Shown one piece after another: positions 8,791 to 19,202 of a stretch of DNA of 64,000 bases. This DNA comes from Candidatus Saccharimonadota bacterium (GTDB taxonomy: Bacteria > Patescibacteriota > Saccharimonadia > Saccharimonadales > Saccharimonadaceae), in the NCBI GenBank assembly GCA_030528025.1, contig JAUMZP010000001.1:434001-498000 (forward strand). Reading direction: 5' to 3'. Made by a program: the position numbers and the translations under genes. The first letter of the stretch is position 1. Each line of letters begins with the position of its first letter. The notes under the pieces are model-generated. The model did not search any database. It was given only the letters and a program-made list of their open reading frames with translations, and was not told the DNA's origin.

Positions 8791-9498
8791 TCACCCGCGC
8801 ACGCGGCGTTTGTGCCGCACGCGGGTGCGAGGTTGCCGTAGTGAAGTGTGTGCTGCTGAGGTGGATTTGCTGTAGTCTTTGGCTTTGGCGTAATTACCAG
8901 CAACATAACGTTCGGCAGCGACGCCGCCAAGGATGGCACCCGTAGCAAACGACCCTATTTCTACCACATGAGCATAATGCTCAAGCTTGCTACCCTCAGG
9001 GGTAAGAGCCTTAAGAAAATAGGCGGCAACTGTGACATTATCTGCCGCCATGCTAAGTTTGCCTGATTTTGGCGTACGGAAGGCTTCGTCATTTGTGAGA
9101 CCATGATAGACGGTCGCGCCAGCATTGATAGCATTCTTGGTGACAATTGTTGCCAAAACCGGCTTGGGCATGATGTTGTGCTTAGCGAGCAGTGTAGTAA
9201 TAACACCCATAGCTGCTTTGTCGCATACAGCGTCAACCTCTGCACCAAAGTCACTTTCTTGGCCAAAGAATCGCGCCGCTGGACCATCTGCTAAGTCGCA
9301 TATACGACCACCAAGTATCATGAGTGCGCCAATGACCTGGCCAGCTTTGTCGTTTTCCTTTGTTGCAGTGTCAAATTTCTTAGCGCCACCGACTACTAGC
9401 CCTAGCCCAGCAACCGAGATGGCATTTGGCACAGTAAAGATATCCCTCACGTGATATTCGCGCTTGCGTTGTCTTGGGTTTTGCTCTGCTGTCGCCAT
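8791..9498 (-). CDS. CDP-alcohol phosphatidyltransferase family protein
   Basis: Membrane enzyme that joins a CDP-activated lipid to an alcohol, or the reverse pairing, in phospholipid synthesis. The family motif DxxDGxxAR(x8)GxxxDxxxD is complete: DLADGPAAR at residues 68-76, then GAEVDAVCD ending at residue 93. The four aspartates hold the two metal ions. Several hydrophobic segments flank it and the C-terminus is very basic. The substrate cannot be read from sequence; PgsA-type (phosphatidylglycerophosphate) or inositol/archaetidyl-type members are all possible. A 17-base palindrome lies directly upstream of the start. The end of the gene contains a GC-rich inverted repeat at about 8790-8825. 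Confidence 0.85.
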   Translation of the reverse strand: MATAEQNPRQRKREYHVRDIFTVPNAISVAGLGLVVGGAKKFDTATKENDKAGQVIGALMILGGRICDLADGPAARFFGQESDFGAEVDAVCDKAAMGVITTLLAKHNIMPKPVLATIVTKNAINAGATVYHGLTNDEAFRTPKSGKLSMAADNVTVAAYFLKALTPEGSKLEHYAHVVEIGSFATGAILGGVAAERYVAGNYAKAKDYSKSTSAAHTSLRQPRTRVRHKRRVRG

Positions 9499-10419: not shown

Positions 10420-10448
10420 TTGACATTTTGTCAAGCGGGTGCTAGTAT
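10420..10448 (+). promoter_or_regulatory. Promoter with TTGACA/TGTCAA inverted repeat
   Basis: TTGACA (10420-10425), a 17-base spacer and TAGTAT (10443-10448) make a sigma70-type promoter for the RNA that follows. The -35 box is half of a perfect inverted repeat, TTGACA-TTT-TGTCAA (10420-10434). The complementary half could also act for dprA on the other strand, so this may be a shared divergent control site. Confidence 0.55.
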
Positions 10449-10454
10449 CATAAG

Positions 10455-10733
10455 TGATTGATTGAGCGCAAGCTCGTTCAAGTACCTTATACCCCCTATT
10501 TTAACATAGTTACCCCAGTGTTTTCACGAAGGTAACGTGTTAGGTTGCACACAATCTGTGCTGTAGTTATCTACCCTCCACTGCAGCACCGTTAGACAGG
10601 GTTGTGTGCTTACTAACCCCTTTGTCCAGCGGATCTCGTATGTGTGAGTAGATCACGTATACCCTGATTGGGTGGGACGAAGGGCAAACCAAGCGCTCAT
10701 AGTGATGCCCACCCTTACTATGAGCGCTTTTTT
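10455..10733 (+). ncRNA. Structured noncoding RNA, unknown family
   Basis: A chain of strong helices occupies this interval. A GAGC-GCAA-GCTC hairpin (10464-10475) comes first. Next is GTTACC/GGTAAC (10509-10536) with GTG-TTTT-CAC inside. The long third hairpin combines GTTAG/CTAAC, GCACACAA/TTGTGTGC and GTGCTGTAG/CTGCAGCAC (10539-10617). The fourth helix is CCCTTTGTCC/GGACGAAGGG (10618-10684). The last is an intrinsic terminator with the 11-base stem GCGCTCATAGT/ACTATGAGCGC and TTTTTT (10693-10733). There is no reading frame. The RNase P, tmRNA and SRP core motifs I know are absent. The 5' end is inferred from the promoter and may lie closer to 10490. Confidence 0.7.
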
Positions 10734-10739
10734 GTTGGG

Positions 10740-11146
10740 GTGAGTTGATGGTGATCTACCCGTACAGGAGTTATTTTAAGCTGATTCTACTATCTCTGGT
10801 AGTAGCTAATATCTTGGTGTCCTGGTGTTTTTGGCTTGTCTATAGAGCACAGAATTATTAGCGTAAAGACTGTAATGTAGAAAATTTAATAAGTAGCCCT
10901 TCCTTCATATTGCTATACCCTCTGGTACGGTATGTGGGAGGTAAGACGCAGATAACAAGAGCCACATGCCAAGAGTTCGTGCAATTGACACGCGCTCCTA
11001 GCAGATATTGCTATATAGCTTAGCACGCACAAAATCTATGGCTGAACAATACTTTTCACCATGTTTTTCTCTGTTATGAAGCAGTGAACTTATTATTTAT
11101 TCAAGTGAGAGATATGCAAGAAAACGCTGTTATACGCTAGTGAGCA
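10740..11146. other. Intergenic, no feature recognised
   Basis: About 400 bases between the structured RNA and the end of the minus-strand gene at 11147. No open frame with a start signal, no tRNA and no clear terminator is visible. Confidence 0.5.
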
Positions 11147-12457
11147 CTAGAGTTGAGCTGTGTTGCTACGTGTTAGCTGCTTGTCTGAAGTAGCGTTTGG
11201 ATCAACATAGTACTTGGGGATGCTATGAGCCTGGTTCTCTGGCTCTTCCCAGTATGGGCGTGGCTTATCAGATGCATACAGATTGCTTCTACTGGTGTTT
11301 GAGGTTGTGCTTTGCTGTGCTTCGTCTTGAGCAGCCTTCTCTGTGACATCTGGGTTGGTGACAAGGTCTTTAGTGATTGCTGGGTCAGTGACAGTGATAA
11401 GCTTGAGATGATGTGTATCAATATCTTCATAACTTACATCGACATTATAAACCTTCTTGAGATACTCTGGTGTTGGACTAGCGATACTACCCTGTACGAC
11501 GAGACCGCCTAGCTGGAATTCATGTGGGTTATCTGGGTTATTCTGTACAAAGAGTGGCGAACCTTGCCCTGTGCGGTCATCAAAGCCGTCTTCTGATGAG
11601 ACGAGTAGTGTCTTGGTATGGGCAGCATCGTTATATCCAACGACAAAACCAGATGCAACGACTGGTTTGCCAATCTTGCGCTCATTACCTTGGCTACCAT
11701 AATTAACGACAGTAAGTGGCTGCTCGAGGAGGTCGTCTTGAGTAATTGTCGTAATGATGCCATTTTTTACCTCGAGCGACATCTGGCGGCTTGTTCGGCG
11801 ATAGGCGTGGTTCTCATTTTTTTCAGCAAGAGTCAGAGCGACAATATGCTTGTGAGAAGTATCATAAGGGCCAGGCATCAGCATGGTGCAGCCACCATTG
11901 GGATGAAATTCTGACCCATTGGAGCCTATTGTAATAATGCCAATATTATCCGGGGTGAGATTCTCGAGATCCTCTGTATTGACAACGGTGAGAATAATGG
12001 GGTGGCCCTGCTCGCTATCGTTTGCAGAGTAGGTTATAACACCAGAGTAGAGTACATCTGTCTCTCCTCCTGATATTCTCACCTTAGTAGCAGTAAGAGC
12101 CGGTGCGCCCTCAGAATAGCCATTTACATCAATACCACTATCACGGAAGACATGCTCCCACGCTTCATCTTGAGAACTGAATGGAAGGTCGCTCGGTGTG
12201 CGTGTATAGTCGACGGCTGGTTTGTCGTGGCCAAGGTCAACGCCGTCGTCTAGCTCGGTGTCGCTACAGGCTGGTAATGGGTCGTTGCCTGGGTAGAAAT
12301 CTGGGAGGCAGCTGTAGGCGCCGTATAACGTTGGAAGAGTTATAATTGCGAGACCAGCAATAACCTCCTTCCGCTTTGGGCGGCGGTGAGGCTGCTGTTC
12401 ATTTGGTGATGGTTGTTCTTCTGAGGGTGGTAGTGGTTCGCAATTCTTCTTGACCAT
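11147..12457 (-). CDS. Membrane-anchored trypsin-fold protein, probably inactive
   Basis: About 30 charged cytoplasmic residues precede one membrane helix (VIAGLAIITLPTLYGAYSCL) and a long extracytoplasmic part. This resembles the divergent neighbour at 12600. SGVITYSAND...PIILTVVNTED aligns by eye with the neighbour's segment ending TAAHVV, with Asn where the catalytic His should be. Near the C-terminal third TGQGSPLF keeps the GSPLF of chymotrypsin-like enzymes but has Gln in place of the nucleophile Ser. I infer a pseudoprotease; function unknown. Start 12457 has TATAAT 7 bases upstream; the longer frame to 12496 would begin upstream of that box. Confidence 0.75.
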   Translation of the reverse strand: MVKKNCEPLPPSEEQPSPNEQQPHRRPKRKEVIAGLAIITLPTLYGAYSCLPDFYPGNDPLPACSDTELDDGVDLGHDKPAVDYTRTPSDLPFSSQDEAWEHVFRDSGIDVNGYSEGAPALTATKVRISGGETDVLYSGVITYSANDSEQGHPIILTVVNTEDLENLTPDNIGIITIGSNGSEFHPNGGCTMLMPGPYDTSHKHIVALTLAEKNENHAYRRTSRQMSLEVKNGIITTITQDDLLEQPLTVVNYGSQGNERKIGKPVVASGFVVGYNDAAHTKTLLVSSEDGFDDRTGQGSPLFVQNNPDNPHEFQLGGLVVQGSIASPTPEYLKKVYNVDVSYEDIDTHHLKLITVTDPAITKDLVTNPDVTEKAAQDEAQQSTTSNTSRSNLYASDKPRPYWEEPENQAHSIPKYYVDPNATSDKQLTRSNTAQL

Positions 12458-12599
12458 AATAGTTATTATAGTAGTACATTTTGTATCGTATGACAAATAT
12501 CCATACTACGTGCAGAGGTAGTGTCTCCTCTGTGTCTCCTCTGTCAACTACTATTATAAATTTGTATTTAGCCCCGCAAAGCGCTATAATGGCCAAACC
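12458..12599. promoter_or_regulatory. Divergent promoters of the protease pair
   Basis: Minus strand: TATAAT (12465-12470) 7 bases before the start at 12457. Plus strand: TATAAT (12585-12590) 9 bases before the start at 12600. Between them lies a perfect 11-base tandem repeat, GTGTCTCCTCT twice (12521-12542). This could be a shared activator or repressor site. Confidence 0.65.
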
Positions 12600-13805
12600 A
12601 TGACAGAAATGGCAGTTCGAGAACATAATTTTGACCCGCATTCTCAGCCAAAGACGCGGATGGAGCGACGACGGCTCCAGCAAAAGCTCCAGCGAGAGAA
12701 GAACGCGAATTTTGGCAAAAAGGCACTTAGTGCAGTGGTAGGCGCTGCGGTTGGCTGTATGCCAATGGCTGGCCTGACCTATGTTGGGCATGCTCGGCAG
12801 GAGGCGCAGCGGCCTAATAAGCCACTGCCGCCATGTACGGCGGTTGGTCAACCTTCGTCGCTTGACCTAACGCAGCCCGAGGTGGTCGCTCAGCGTCCGC
12901 CAGTGAGCATTGCCGAGGCGTTGGGCAATCATGAAGCGCTCGAGCAGCAAAAGCACGAGGCTTTGCAAGCAGTGCAGAACTCCATCGTCAAGATAAATGC
13001 TCACGCTCATAATATGGCAGAGGTAGGCGGTGCGAATATCACTGGCAGTGGCTACATCATAGCAATGCCAGATGGTACACCCATGGTAATGACGGCCGCA
13101 CACGTGGTATCTAATAAATATCCTATCCGCCAAGCAGACATCACCTTCCAAACAACTGATGGCCAGACCCATGAGATACAAAAAGGCTGCCATAATGGCG
13201 AAGCACCGCCCGAAGGCCAGTGGAGCTCTGGTATGCCTGATGTAGCGGCATTGAGGCCACATGATGAGCTGTCGGGTAGCTCGCCCCTCCACTTTGCAAC
13301 AGATGAGGAAATAGCGGCAGCGGTACGCGCTGGCCAGCCGTTCTTTGCAGTGGGCTTCCCTGCTAATGCTCCAGTGGAATGGGGGCAACCGATTGCCACG
13401 CCGCAAGTCGATGTGCTCCTCCCTGCTGGGCAGCGTGGAGCTGATGGCAAGATGGCTGTAATCTCGGGCCTTGAGCGGTCGGCCAAGGATGCAAATGATG
13501 TTGACGGGCTAGATGATGCTGTTTTGCCTGGTATGTCGGGCGGTGTGGTCGTTGTGCGTACTCCATCTGGTGAGATGAAGGTCGTTGGGATGGTGCAAGC
13601 AGTAGCCCAGCCAGCCACTGCTGCCGAGCTAAGCGCGTATGGCATTGTAGATAACCCAGAGACGGTACGTGCGTATGAACCACGCATTGCCTATCTTGGG
13701 AGCCCCACAGAGACGCAAGAGGCATATACGAGCCTACAAGCAGAAGACGAGTGGTCGGCAGCGAGGGTAATAATGGACCTTGGTGCAGTCTTTCGCAAAG
13801 ATTAG
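12600..13805 (+). CDS. Membrane-anchored trypsin-like serine protease
   Basis: S1-fold protease of 401 residues. A basic N-terminus (to about residue 41) leads into a weak membrane helix (ALSAVVGAAVGCMPMAGLTYVG), so the catalytic domain should face outside. The triad can be read: His168 in MVMTAAHVV, Asp214 in GMPDVAALRP and Ser313 in LPGMSGGVVV. The oxyanion region GMSGG is intact. No PDZ domain follows, so it is not a standard HtrA. The gene is divergent from the dead-looking homologue at 11147, with both promoters in 142 bases. Substrate unknown; processing of surface proteins is a guess. Confidence 0.85.
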   Translation: MTEMAVREHNFDPHSQPKTRMERRRLQQKLQREKNANFGKKALSAVVGAAVGCMPMAGLTYVGHARQEAQRPNKPLPPCTAVGQPSSLDLTQPEVVAQRPPVSIAEALGNHEALEQQKHEALQAVQNSIVKINAHAHNMAEVGGANITGSGYIIAMPDGTPMVMTAAHVVSNKYPIRQADITFQTTDGQTHEIQKGCHNGEAPPEGQWSSGMPDVAALRPHDELSGSSPLHFATDEEIAAAVRAGQPFFAVGFPANAPVEWGQPIATPQVDVLLPAGQRGADGKMAVISGLERSAKDANDVDGLDDAVLPGMSGGVVVVRTPSGEMKVVGMVQAVAQPATAAELSAYGIVDNPETVRAYEPRIAYLGSPTETQEAYTSLQAEDEWSAARVIMDLGAVFRKD

Positions 13806-13861
13806 CCTAGAAGGCTATAGAAGGTGAAGCTCTGCCCTATTCTGTGCTATACTAAATCACT

Positions 13862-17153: not shown

Positions 17154-17653
17154 TGACAAGCAGGAGAATATGCGCAGCAGAGTAGCTGCTGATAATTCTG
17201 GCGGCTTGTCAGCTCAGAGTCTATACTGAGCGAGCATGTTCAAGCTCGCTCAGAGCATGTAATGTATATGGACAAAGGAGTTCAGACATTTGTCTGAACT
17301 CATCGAATTCGTTAACACATACTGCTGCAGTGTGTGTTGCGAGCTCAATACAGGCGTATAGGTGTTCTCCTGGGTGGAGAGCACCGATAGCAGTGTCGTA
17401 CAAGGACGTGTTGAGCTTACGCCCGACACGTCCTTGTGTTACATCGATGCCAGGGTTGTAATAAGTGCCCATGATGCTTCTTTCTCCTCATCCAGGCGGA
17501 GTGCCCGTATCTCCTCTCGAGAAAACACTGCTCGGACGTCCGGATGACGACCAGCAAGATGAGGTTATCTGGCACTATCTTTGCCTGTATTGCCATTGGC
17601 TCAGACATTAACACCAGAGAATCTCACCTTGCTAGCTATTCTCCTGCTTGTCA
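17154..17653. repeat. 500-base element bounded by 17-base inverted repeats
   Basis: TGACAAGCAGGAGAATA (17154-17170) and its exact complement (17637-17653) bound this segment. Inside are further perfect inverted repeats: CTGAGCGAGC/GCTCGCTCAG (near 17224-17252), GAGTTCAGACA/TGTCTGAACTC (near 17279-17302) and CAAGGACGTGT/ACACGTCCTTG (near 17400-17436). No target duplication is visible. It may be a small mobile element, or a transcript whose two ends pair. Confidence 0.75.
17221..17472 (-). CDS. Hypothetical protein, 83 residues, inside the repeat element
   Basis: I do not recognise this protein. It starts MGTYYNPGIDVTQGRVG and is soluble with no signal or membrane segment. GGATGAGGAG lies upstream of the ATG at 17472, with rather long spacing. 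Three perfect inverted repeats fall inside the frame, including one across the last codons, so the sequence is constrained as nucleic acid as well as, or instead of, protein. A frame at 17417-17614 overlaps it and is another candidate. The shared minus-strand promoter at 17701-17729 probably drives it. Confidence 0.4.
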   Translation of the reverse strand: MGTYYNPGIDVTQGRVGRKLNTSLYDTAIGALHPGEHLYACIELATHTAAVCVNEFDEFRQMSELLCPYTLHALSELEHARSV

Positions 17654-17792: not shown

Positions 17793-19202
17793 TTATTGCT
17801 TGGTGGATCTTTCGGCGTCTTTGGCTTGCTTGTATGCTTTGGTAACAGGCTCGAGGCCACGCTTAACGCGCTCGCGGTTGGCTTTGAGCTGCTTCTCGTC
17901 GCGGAAGGAGAGCTTGATGGGGGTGCCAGTGTAGTCGTAGGTGTCGCGGATGCGCCGCTCGAGGTAGCGCTTGTAGCTCCAGTGGACGAACTTGAGGTTG
18001 CTGCCGTAGATAACGAACCATGGTGGGTTTGTGTCTGTCTGGACGATGTAGCGCAGCTTGGGATGGGTATTCTTGAGGCCAGCTGGCGGGTGCTTCTGCA
18101 CAGAGCGCTGCAGGAGGTCATTGAGAGTGCGAGTGGTGGTCTTTTGCTGGCGATGGGTAGCAATACTCAGGGCAAGGTCGAATAACTTCGTCACATTCTG
18201 GCCCGTAACAGCACTGGTGAATATGAGTGGTGCCCACGGTGTGAAGTCGAACTGGGCGGAGATCTGCGGGACGAGTGCATCGCGCGTGTAGGCATCTTTG
18301 CCCTCCACAGCGTCCCATTTGCTCACGACGATAGCCATGCCCTTGCCCGCCTCGGCAATGATGCCAGCAAGCCGTTGGTCGAGGGCGGTGTTGAGTTCGT
18401 TCACATCCATCAGGAGGAAGCAGATATCAGCCTCCTCGATGGCAGCCAAAGTGCGCAAGACGCTAAATTTCTCGATGCCCACCTCCTGCTTGCCTTGGCG
18501 GCGAATGCCGGCGGTGTCGAGCAGCTCGATGGTTTGCCCCTGGTAGCGCAGACGGATGTGATTGACATCGCGCGTGGTGCCTGCTACCCCAGCCACAATG
18601 GCTTGTTGCTTGCCTGCTAGTGTGTTGAAGAGGCTGGATTTGCCTACATTGGGCCGGCCGATCAAAGCAATCTTGAGTACATCGCTCGGCTCGGTTTGGC
18701 GCTTCTCTGGGATGTGCTGACAGATCTCATCTAGCGCATCACTAATACCACTGTTGTGCTCGGCACTGGTGCGGATAATGCTCTTAATGCCAAGACGAAG
18801 AAACTCACTAGTAGGCAGACTGCCCCGCAGGTCGGTTTTGTTGGTGATGAGAATGACAGGCTTGCGGCTCTTGAGGGCGGTCTTAGCGATGCGCCGGTCT
18901 TCGTCGCTGGGGTATTCGGTGCTATCCACGACCACGAGGATGACGTCGGCCGCATCGGATGCATCAGTGATTTGCTCTTGAATACTTGCCTCAAACTCAT
19001 CTTCTGCTGGCTTGAGGCCGGCTGTATCGACGAGCCAGAACTCATACCCATGGTAGGCTGCCTTACCCACCACCCGATCGCGCGTTGTACCAGCCTCGCG
19101 TGCCACGATAGCCTGCTGCGAACGCATCATACGATTAAACAGCGAGCTCTTGCCGGCATTGGCACGCCCGATGATTGCAACAGTAGGAAGTTTGGTAGCC
19201 AT
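17793..19202 (-). CDS. der: Der (EngA), double GTPase for 50S assembly
   Basis: Ribosome-assembly GTPase with two tandem G domains and a KH-like C-terminal domain. G1 motifs are GRANAGKSSLF (residues 12-22) and GRPNVGKSSLF (near 182). G3 motifs are DTAGLKP and DTAGIRR, and G4 motifs are TNKTD and SKWD. The KH-like part contains HPKLRYIVQTDTNPPWFVIYG and RRIRDTYDYTGTPIKLSFR. Length 469, normal. The first G1 has Ala where Pro is usual (GRANAGKS instead of GRPNVGKS). TATAAT (extended, TGATATAAT) lies 9 bases before the ATG. Confidence 0.97.
   Translation of the reverse strand: MATKLPTVAIIGRANAGKSSLFNRMMRSQQAIVAREAGTTRDRVVGKAAYHGYEFWLVDTAGLKPAEDEFEASIQEQITDASDAADVILVVVDSTEYPSDEDRRIAKTALKSRKPVILITNKTDLRGSLPTSEFLRLGIKSIIRTSAEHNSGISDALDEICQHIPEKRQTEPSDVLKIALIGRPNVGKSSLFNTLAGKQQAIVAGVAGTTRDVNHIRLRYQGQTIELLDTAGIRRQGKQEVGIEKFSVLRTLAAIEEADICFLLMDVNELNTALDQRLAGIIAEAGKGMAIVVSKWDAVEGKDAYTRDALVPQISAQFDFTPWAPLIFTSAVTGQNVTKLFDLALSIATHRQQKTTTRTLNDLLQRSVQKHPPAGLKNTHPKLRYIVQTDTNPPWFVIYGSNLKFVHWSYKRYLERRIRDTYDYTGTPIKLSFRDEKQLKANRERVKRGLEPVTKAYKQAKDAERSTKQ

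Follow-up and report, generated by a model that had tools for sequence, protein, structure and literature searches.

A membrane-anchored trypsin-like protease and a putative non-catalytic relative encoded back to back in a Saccharimonadaceae genome

What might a protease-like protein that apparently lacks its catalytic residues do when it is encoded next to an apparently working protease? The locus that raises this question lies in a window of 64,000 nucleotides (positions 434,001 to 498,000 of the forward strand of contig JAUMZP010000001.1, in our numbering G000:C9) from Candidatus Saccharimonadota bacterium (GCA_030528025.1; Saccharimonadaceae), a genome of 1.03 Mb in 15 contigs; all coordinates given here refer to this window. 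As noted in a preliminary description made from the sequence alone, it contains two divergent open reading frames (ORFs) separated by 142 bases, the left one encoding a protein of 436 amino acids with an N-terminal anchor and a degenerate trypsin-like ectodomain (P1; 11147-12457, minus strand) and the right one a membrane-anchored protein of 401 amino acids with an intact catalytic triad (P2; 12600-13805, plus strand). With a probability of roughly 0.6, both belong to an accessory family of outward-facing, single-pass trypsin-like proteins, and P1 would be a folded, non-catalytic surface binding protein descended from a protease. To our knowledge, little is known about the coat of the small epibiotic Saccharibacteria; if true, a trypsin fold that recurs on the surface, with its scaffold retained and its chemistry lost, would offer a concrete candidate for cell-surface recognition or regulation.

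P2 is apparently a working serine protease. It matches the Trypsin_2 family (PF13365) with 32.1 bits (curated cut-off 27.6; E 2.2e-7), and the triad that had been read from its sequence, His168 (13101-13103, plus strand), Asp214 (13239-13241, plus strand), and Ser313 (13536-13538, plus strand), proved to be complete and in the expected order. No PDZ family is present among its Pfam matches at E ≤ 10. MarP is a membrane-anchored, extracytoplasmic serine protease with several transmembrane helices, whereas P2 has one, and the resemblance of P2 to the MarP family (NF033740) is weak (residues 113-171; E 8.5e-6; 25 bits versus an NCBIfam cut-off of 250). Besides P2, a single further place in the genome matches Trypsin_2, and much more strongly (E 1.6e-33); its product, which we take to be HtrA-like, and the presence of at least one Trypsin_2 match in 12 of the 13 genomes of the genus are the reasons for which P2 is classified, from these matches, as an accessory protease.

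P1 matches no Pfam family at E ≤ 10, Trypsin_2 included, and its sole NCBIfam match is a DHFR model at chance level (E 0.14), with no trypsin model among the matches. The earlier proposal that both proteins have a trypsin fold is therefore borne out by a family match for P2, and for P1 we infer it from homology, the lines of evidence being weak but mutually consistent. They involve a third protein, P3, the product of a lone ORF of 405 amino acids between dprA and terC (gene names at the locus are presumed from the sequences) in the closest relative, genome G012, in which TerC, TopA, DprA, and Pth are 83, 81, 69, and 65% identical to their counterparts in the window. P3 has the same orientation as P1 and was found by position, and P1 and P2 were given, so none of the three was picked by similarity. 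Its layout resembles that of P1 (a basic N-terminus, a hydrophobic segment, PIEAC, GC further on, and a C-terminal part that can be aligned to P1), the hydrophobic segment being weak, with no 19-residue window above 1.4. In full-length global alignments compared with 1000 shuffles, the z scores were 4.0 (P1-P2), 5.3 (P1-P3), and 4.6 (P2-P3), with 1, 0, and 0 shuffles scoring as high; ectodomains alone, aligned with free end gaps, gave 4.2, 1.5, and 3.1 for the same pairs, and local alignments gave 1.9, 3.9, and 4.7. Local alignments with P4, a catalytic homologue described below and hence a selected sequence, yielded z scores of 4.8 for P1 (2 of 1000 shuffles as high), 2.6 for P2, and -0.3 for P3. 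When profiles were compared with hhalign, P1 plus P3 scored 40.4 against the live set P2/P4/P5 (highest of 250 column shuffles, 24.1), a value to be read with the caveat that P4 had been found with a P1-containing profile in the same region. P1 alone scored 24.6 (highest of 200 shuffles, 23.2), aligned in register around His, a region that had played no part in the selection, and outscored every other ORF of 250-700 amino acids in the window except P2. The P1-P2 identity is 14-25% depending on the alignment. The shuffle and profile comparisons argue moderately for a common origin, with P1 as a diverged relative of P2.

At the catalytic positions, all three residues of P1 appear to have been replaced, the Asp included. 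Asn and Gln had previously been placed by eye at the His and Ser positions of P1; both assignments hold, as Asn160 (11978-11980, minus strand) and Gln298 (11564-11566, minus strand; TGQGSP versus GGSGGP), and His204 (11846-11848, minus strand) occupies the Asp position in addition. In a nine-sequence alignment, His, Asp, and Ser are found in all seven live members in the respective columns, which hold Asp155, Ser193, and Asn285 in P3 and His204 and Gln298 in P1 for the latter two. The His column of this alignment is taken by P1 His152, whereas another alignment gives Asn160; the latter is favoured because of a gapless motif, G-[TH]-[PS]-x3-T-x2-[HND], shared by P1 (GHPIILTVVN), P2 (GTPMVMTAAH), and P3 (GHSTVVTTGD). 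Under no alignment reading is a Ser present in the nucleophile position of P1. The replacements thus differ between P1 (Asn/His/Gln) and P3 (Asp/Ser/Asn).

P1 and P2 are alike in the layout of anchor and cysteines. P1 has a hydrophobic segment following a basic N-terminus (residues 32-50; 12308-12364, minus strand; Kyte-Doolittle value 1.57), and exactly two cysteines are found beyond the anchor in each of P1 to P5, the first in the stalk (motif PxxC or PxC), the second 25-30 residues past the His position. In P1, these are Cys64 in the juxtamembrane stalk (12266-12268, minus strand; PLPAC, PLPPC in P2) and its predicted partner Cys190 in the domain (11888-11890, minus strand), in P2 Cys79 in the stalk (12834-12836, plus strand) and Cys197 in the domain (13188-13190, plus strand). 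The domain cysteine column is Cys in all nine aligned relatives, dead and live; the four of the nine outside P1 to P5 combine the domain cysteine with a C-terminal one, and among them the homologue in genome G084 has extra cysteines. Probably, a stalk-to-domain disulfide staples the ectodomain in this family, and since the dead members keep the domain cysteine, the pattern suggests that they still fold. Sequence anatomy, triad status, locus, distribution, and conserved cysteines are direct observations, whereas we infer for P1 an N-in single-pass anchor, a disulfide, a retained fold, and a lack of catalysis. Among small accessory trypsin-like proteins with full triads, those at loci L090, L091, L092, and L093 have a C-terminal cysteine replacing the stalk cysteine, and the L093 protein is lipoprotein-like by its look (LSGC near the N-terminus).

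The fold of P1 was modelled with AlphaFold2, first from P1 alone and then from a full-length alignment (A7) that also contained P2 and was chosen over several trimmed ones because the anchor and the GC cysteines are in register. The second model is mainly beta, with a block at residues ~261-360 reaching a predicted local distance difference test score (pLDDT) of 43-67. When residues 244-363 were compared by VIA-align, about 46 of 50 rows were trypsin- or chymotrypsin-fold proteins as judged by title, all with Z below 8 and matching either barrel; the best of these was HtrA1 (Z 5.8, 76 residues, 2.9 Å), and MamO (5hma) was present as well (Z 4.5, 75 residues, 3.7 Å). This resemblance is suggestive only. 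Several results speak against a trypsin-derived, folded P1. The models are poor, with mean pLDDT values of 32.5 (P1 alone) and 33.7 (three sequences); two MreC rows head the VIA-align result (Z 6.9 and 6.0), and P2 had been part of the input alignment; and the 383 matches that Foldseek found at E ≤ 10 in the PDB include not one at ≤ 0.001 and show no prominent family, although an absence in this search is uninformative. At the sequence level, P1 does not rise above shuffled sequences in its score with a HMMER profile of the live set (2 of 400 scored higher), hhalign of P1 plus P3 against P2 alone gave 17.6 where column shuffles reach 24.2, albeit in register over 277 columns, and the ectodomain-only alignment of P1 with P3 is weak, as given above. 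Finally, P1 and P3 do not group in the tree: P3 falls with P2 (support 86/90), the three together have 71/75, and branches are long, so that one loss of the triad is conceivable and so are two.

The preliminary description had proposed to check whether orthologues invariably come in pairs that carry identical substitutions, which did not turn out to be the case. In G012, the gap between P3 and TerC (~55-100 bases) is too small for P2, so the dead homologue stands alone, with other substitutions than P1. Searches of 394 genomes of the family with single proteins found for P2 only itself and for P1, besides itself, two matches at E ≤ 0.01, which were short, contained stops, and were judged to be chance; no match was obtained when a collection of genome contigs was searched with P1 and viral contigs with P2 and the profile A2. 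The latter, built from P1, P3, and P2, gave seven weak matches at E ≤ 1 in the family beyond G000 and G012, and among the five that were read, one proved to be a true homologue, which is P4 of G231 (E 0.029, a value uninformative by itself; Trypsin_2 E 2.0e-9, full triad, PPC and GGC cysteines). With P4 added to the profile, P5 of G185 was found (Trypsin_2 E 8.5e-13). Both genomes belong to the same other genus, and each has a lone catalytic homologue beside pth, P4 and P5 both lying between pth and der. A five-row profile was run over 349 genomes of the order and matched 20 at E ≤ 0.1, including G000 and G012; the 15 loci read out of the 18 further ones were classed by eye as six HtrA-like, two MarP-like, and three unrelated proteins and as four trypsin-like proteins that are small, accessory, and complete in their triads (G084, G493, G579, and G575). 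In G084, from a third genus, a lone catalytic homologue is encoded between dprA and topA. Hence G185, G231, and G084, all found by genome-wide profile searches, share the chromosomal neighbourhood of P1/P2 and P3, and in the three genomes of another family (G493, G579, and G575), no match to topA, dprA, pth, or der was found within the 13-kb stretches read. The dprA-pth interval of nine other genomes of the genus with enough sequence holds no P1/P2-like ORF (a tenth locus ends at a contig edge); eight of the nine have a ZIP-like transporter-type ORF there, classed by eye, and G002 has other genes. Dead and live members thus occur without each other in relatives, and the pair itself was seen in one of the 394 family genomes, detection being poor. 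The weak matches at L004, L005, L045, L046, L047, and L049 were rejected as unrelated proteins, as was L060 of G010, where the stretch holds an unrelated gene.

Protease and pseudoprotease pairs as such are of an ordinary kind, and what is new here is an apparently undescribed, fast-evolving family together with its recurrent locus; among the papers listed for Saccharibacteria with serine proteases, pseudoenzymes, and HtrA, none dealt with such proteins, which does not prove that no account exists. As to domain architecture, HtrA and MamE carry a PDZ domain after the protease domain. CspC of Clostridioides difficile is a soluble spore protein with a subtilisin fold and differs in this from P1. 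Three systems are comparable. MamO of magnetotactic Alphaproteobacteria is an inactive trypsin-2-type protein with a degenerate triad that is encoded with the active MamE, and MamE-dependent cleavage of targets requires MamO, although the catalytic residues of MamO are dispensable (Hershey et al. 2016; PMC4794232). Selection for combining an active with an inactive trypsin was proposed, and inactivation was reported to have occurred repeatedly in magnetotactic bacteria (PMC4794232), to which the present family would be a parallel. MamO differs by a TauE-like transporter domain at its C-terminus and by its place in the HtrA/Deg branch (PMC4794232), whereas P1 and P2 have a single N-terminal anchor, no detected PDZ domain, and the stalk-to-domain cysteine pair, and are not mutually dependent in relatives. 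In the Streptomyces umbrella particles, the secreted trypsin-like domains of UmbA lack a full triad, like the presumed one of P1, and bind without cleaving, as P1 by analogy might do; UmbA proteins differ in carrying lectin domains and being part of a large particle (PMC11062931). CspC is a bacterial dead protease, as P1 appears to be by sequence, and has a role in signalling (PMC6636752).

How the pair could operate is best formulated conditionally. The ectodomain would be located on the cell surface and tied by the disulfide from the membrane-proximal stalk to the loop after the catalytic-His position; P2 would cleave as a serine protease, and P1, its triad lost, would have been kept as a non-catalytic binder. 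As a guess, the likeliest ligands of P1 would be a substrate or regulator common to P2, or a surface molecule of a partner organism or host. With a ligand common to P2, P1 could act as activator or decoy of P2, much as MamE-dependent proteolysis needs the inactive MamO. The best reading of the family as a whole is that it is accessory and fast-evolving and that at least two of its members turned into binding or regulatory proteins devoid of catalysis. A more far-reaching version, which we regard as unlikely, holds that the topA-dprA-pth-der neighbourhood harbours a fast-evolving, disulfide-stapled surface trypsin that lost catalysis independently in P1 and P3 and was thereby converted from a protease into a module by which these epibionts recognise others at their surface, at times next to a retained catalytic copy.

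Which role P1 fulfils depends on how its connection to P2 is weighed. The preliminary description had taken a dead partner beside a live enzyme to be a regulator, inhibitor, or substrate-binding subunit; the contrast of dead and live stood up and the common origin did so moderately, the further step found no direct support. In its explicit form, P1 would be a dedicated regulator of P2 (activator, inhibitor, or substrate-presenting subunit), co-expressed from the divergent region and joined with it in a membrane heterodimer. The precedent of MamO and MamE makes a role linked to P2 attractive, and such a role agrees with the divergent genes, whose -10-like boxes both lie inside the 142 bases, and with the like layout of anchors and cysteines; we nevertheless consider the dedicated regulator doubtful, given the solitary P3 of G012 and the solitary live members of G185, G231, and G084, an identity that indicates no special closeness of P1 and P2, and the strong Trypsin_2 match (HtrA-like, as we presume) of 12 of the 13 genus genomes, which could be the partner instead. 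The occurrence of dead and live members on their own argues against a strict two-subunit enzyme, which is unlikely as a family-wide rule, and a species-specific P1-P2 partnership is possible. A tentative alternative, to which we give less than even odds, sees P1 and P3 as independent surface adhesins or lectin-like binders of a partner bacterium or another ligand and the adjacency of P2 as a mere remnant of duplication. P3 standing alone, a divergence very fast relative to the flanking genes, the different replacement of the two triads, and the UmbA precedent of trypsin folds that bind without cleaving are in line with this, whereas Pfam revealed no added lectin domain and rapid divergence fits weak constraint equally well.

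Two further explanations would deprive P1 of any such role. That P1 is not trypsin-like, GQGSPLF and the other resemblances being chance and only the secretion-anchor architecture being common to both proteins, accords with the lack of a trypsin match in Pfam and NCBIfam, the weak HMMER score, and the poor structure model; the shuffle and hhalign tests, the cysteine signature, and a model rich in beta structure, with its best part similar to trypsin barrels, make it improbable. P1 could also be a decaying pseudogene copy of P2, as its lost triad and its G+C content at third codon positions (GC3; 0.45 versus 0.67-0.68 for topA, dprA, terC, and der) might indicate, which is far less credible still, as 436 codons remain open, the anchor and both cysteines are retained, and another species has a further dead member whose frame is likewise open. 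Decay is argued against because the frames of P1 and P3 (436 and 405 codons) stay open at 18-21% identity to each other versus 65-83% in the flanking genes, and for these frames, open at very high divergence, a chance ORF and a decaying copy were both rejected as explanations of P1. A folded, non-catalytic surface protein derived from a protease is the reading that we prefer for P1.

The divergent intergenic region extends from 12458 to 12599, between ATG 12457 on the minus and ATG 12600 on the plus strand. For P1, this ATG is preferred to the TTG at 12496 of the ORF list because the latter falls inside a -35-like hexamer. Hexamers resembling -10 boxes precede each ATG by 9-10 bases (TATAAT at 12585-12590, plus strand, read directly; TACTAT at 12473-12468, minus strand), and because they are so near to the start codons, the P1 and P2 messages may be leaderless. 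Promoter-like sites number 7 in the region as compared to 4.0 ± 2.1 in shuffles, so that the leaderless reading is weak. The previously noted 11-base tandem repeat is real (GTGTCTCCTCT, 2.2 copies, 100% match; 12521-12544, plus strand); its two-unit 22-mer occurs at one place in the genome at up to three mismatches, as does a reversed control pattern, and for this reason it is not regarded as a recurrent element, and a function as operator is unsupported.

The gene order at the locus is topA (-), a CDP-alcohol transferase-like gene (-), dprA (-), P1 (-), P2 (+), terC (+), pth (-), a CobW-like gene (+), and der (-), and TerC shares 80-83% identity with its counterparts in records named Candidatus Saccharibacteria or TM7, among them TM7 oral taxon 352. 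The dprA-terC interval (10435-13861) is a variable slot, which is occupied by P1/P2 here, by P3 in G012, by a permease-like gene at L052 and L055, and by small ORFs at L054. In two of the 13 genus genomes (G001 and G008), large membrane-anchored Trypsin_2 proteins are encoded (L040, 5016-7310, minus strand, 764 amino acids; L041, 4736-7147, plus strand, 803 amino acids), which differ from P1 and P2 in size and place; their genes adjoin what we take to be rpsL/rpsG, with a presumed fusA on the other side in G008. The CDP-alcohol transferase-like gene between topA and dprA (8791-9498, minus strand) diverges fast, with 34-40% identity where topA and dprA of the relatives have 52-81%, and its GC3 is 0.47 versus 0.68 in its neighbours. 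Past the 3' end of der (17793-19202, minus strand), at a distance of ~225 bases, lies a RAGATH-10 RNA (17479-17568, minus strand; 72.9 bits, cut-off 41.2).

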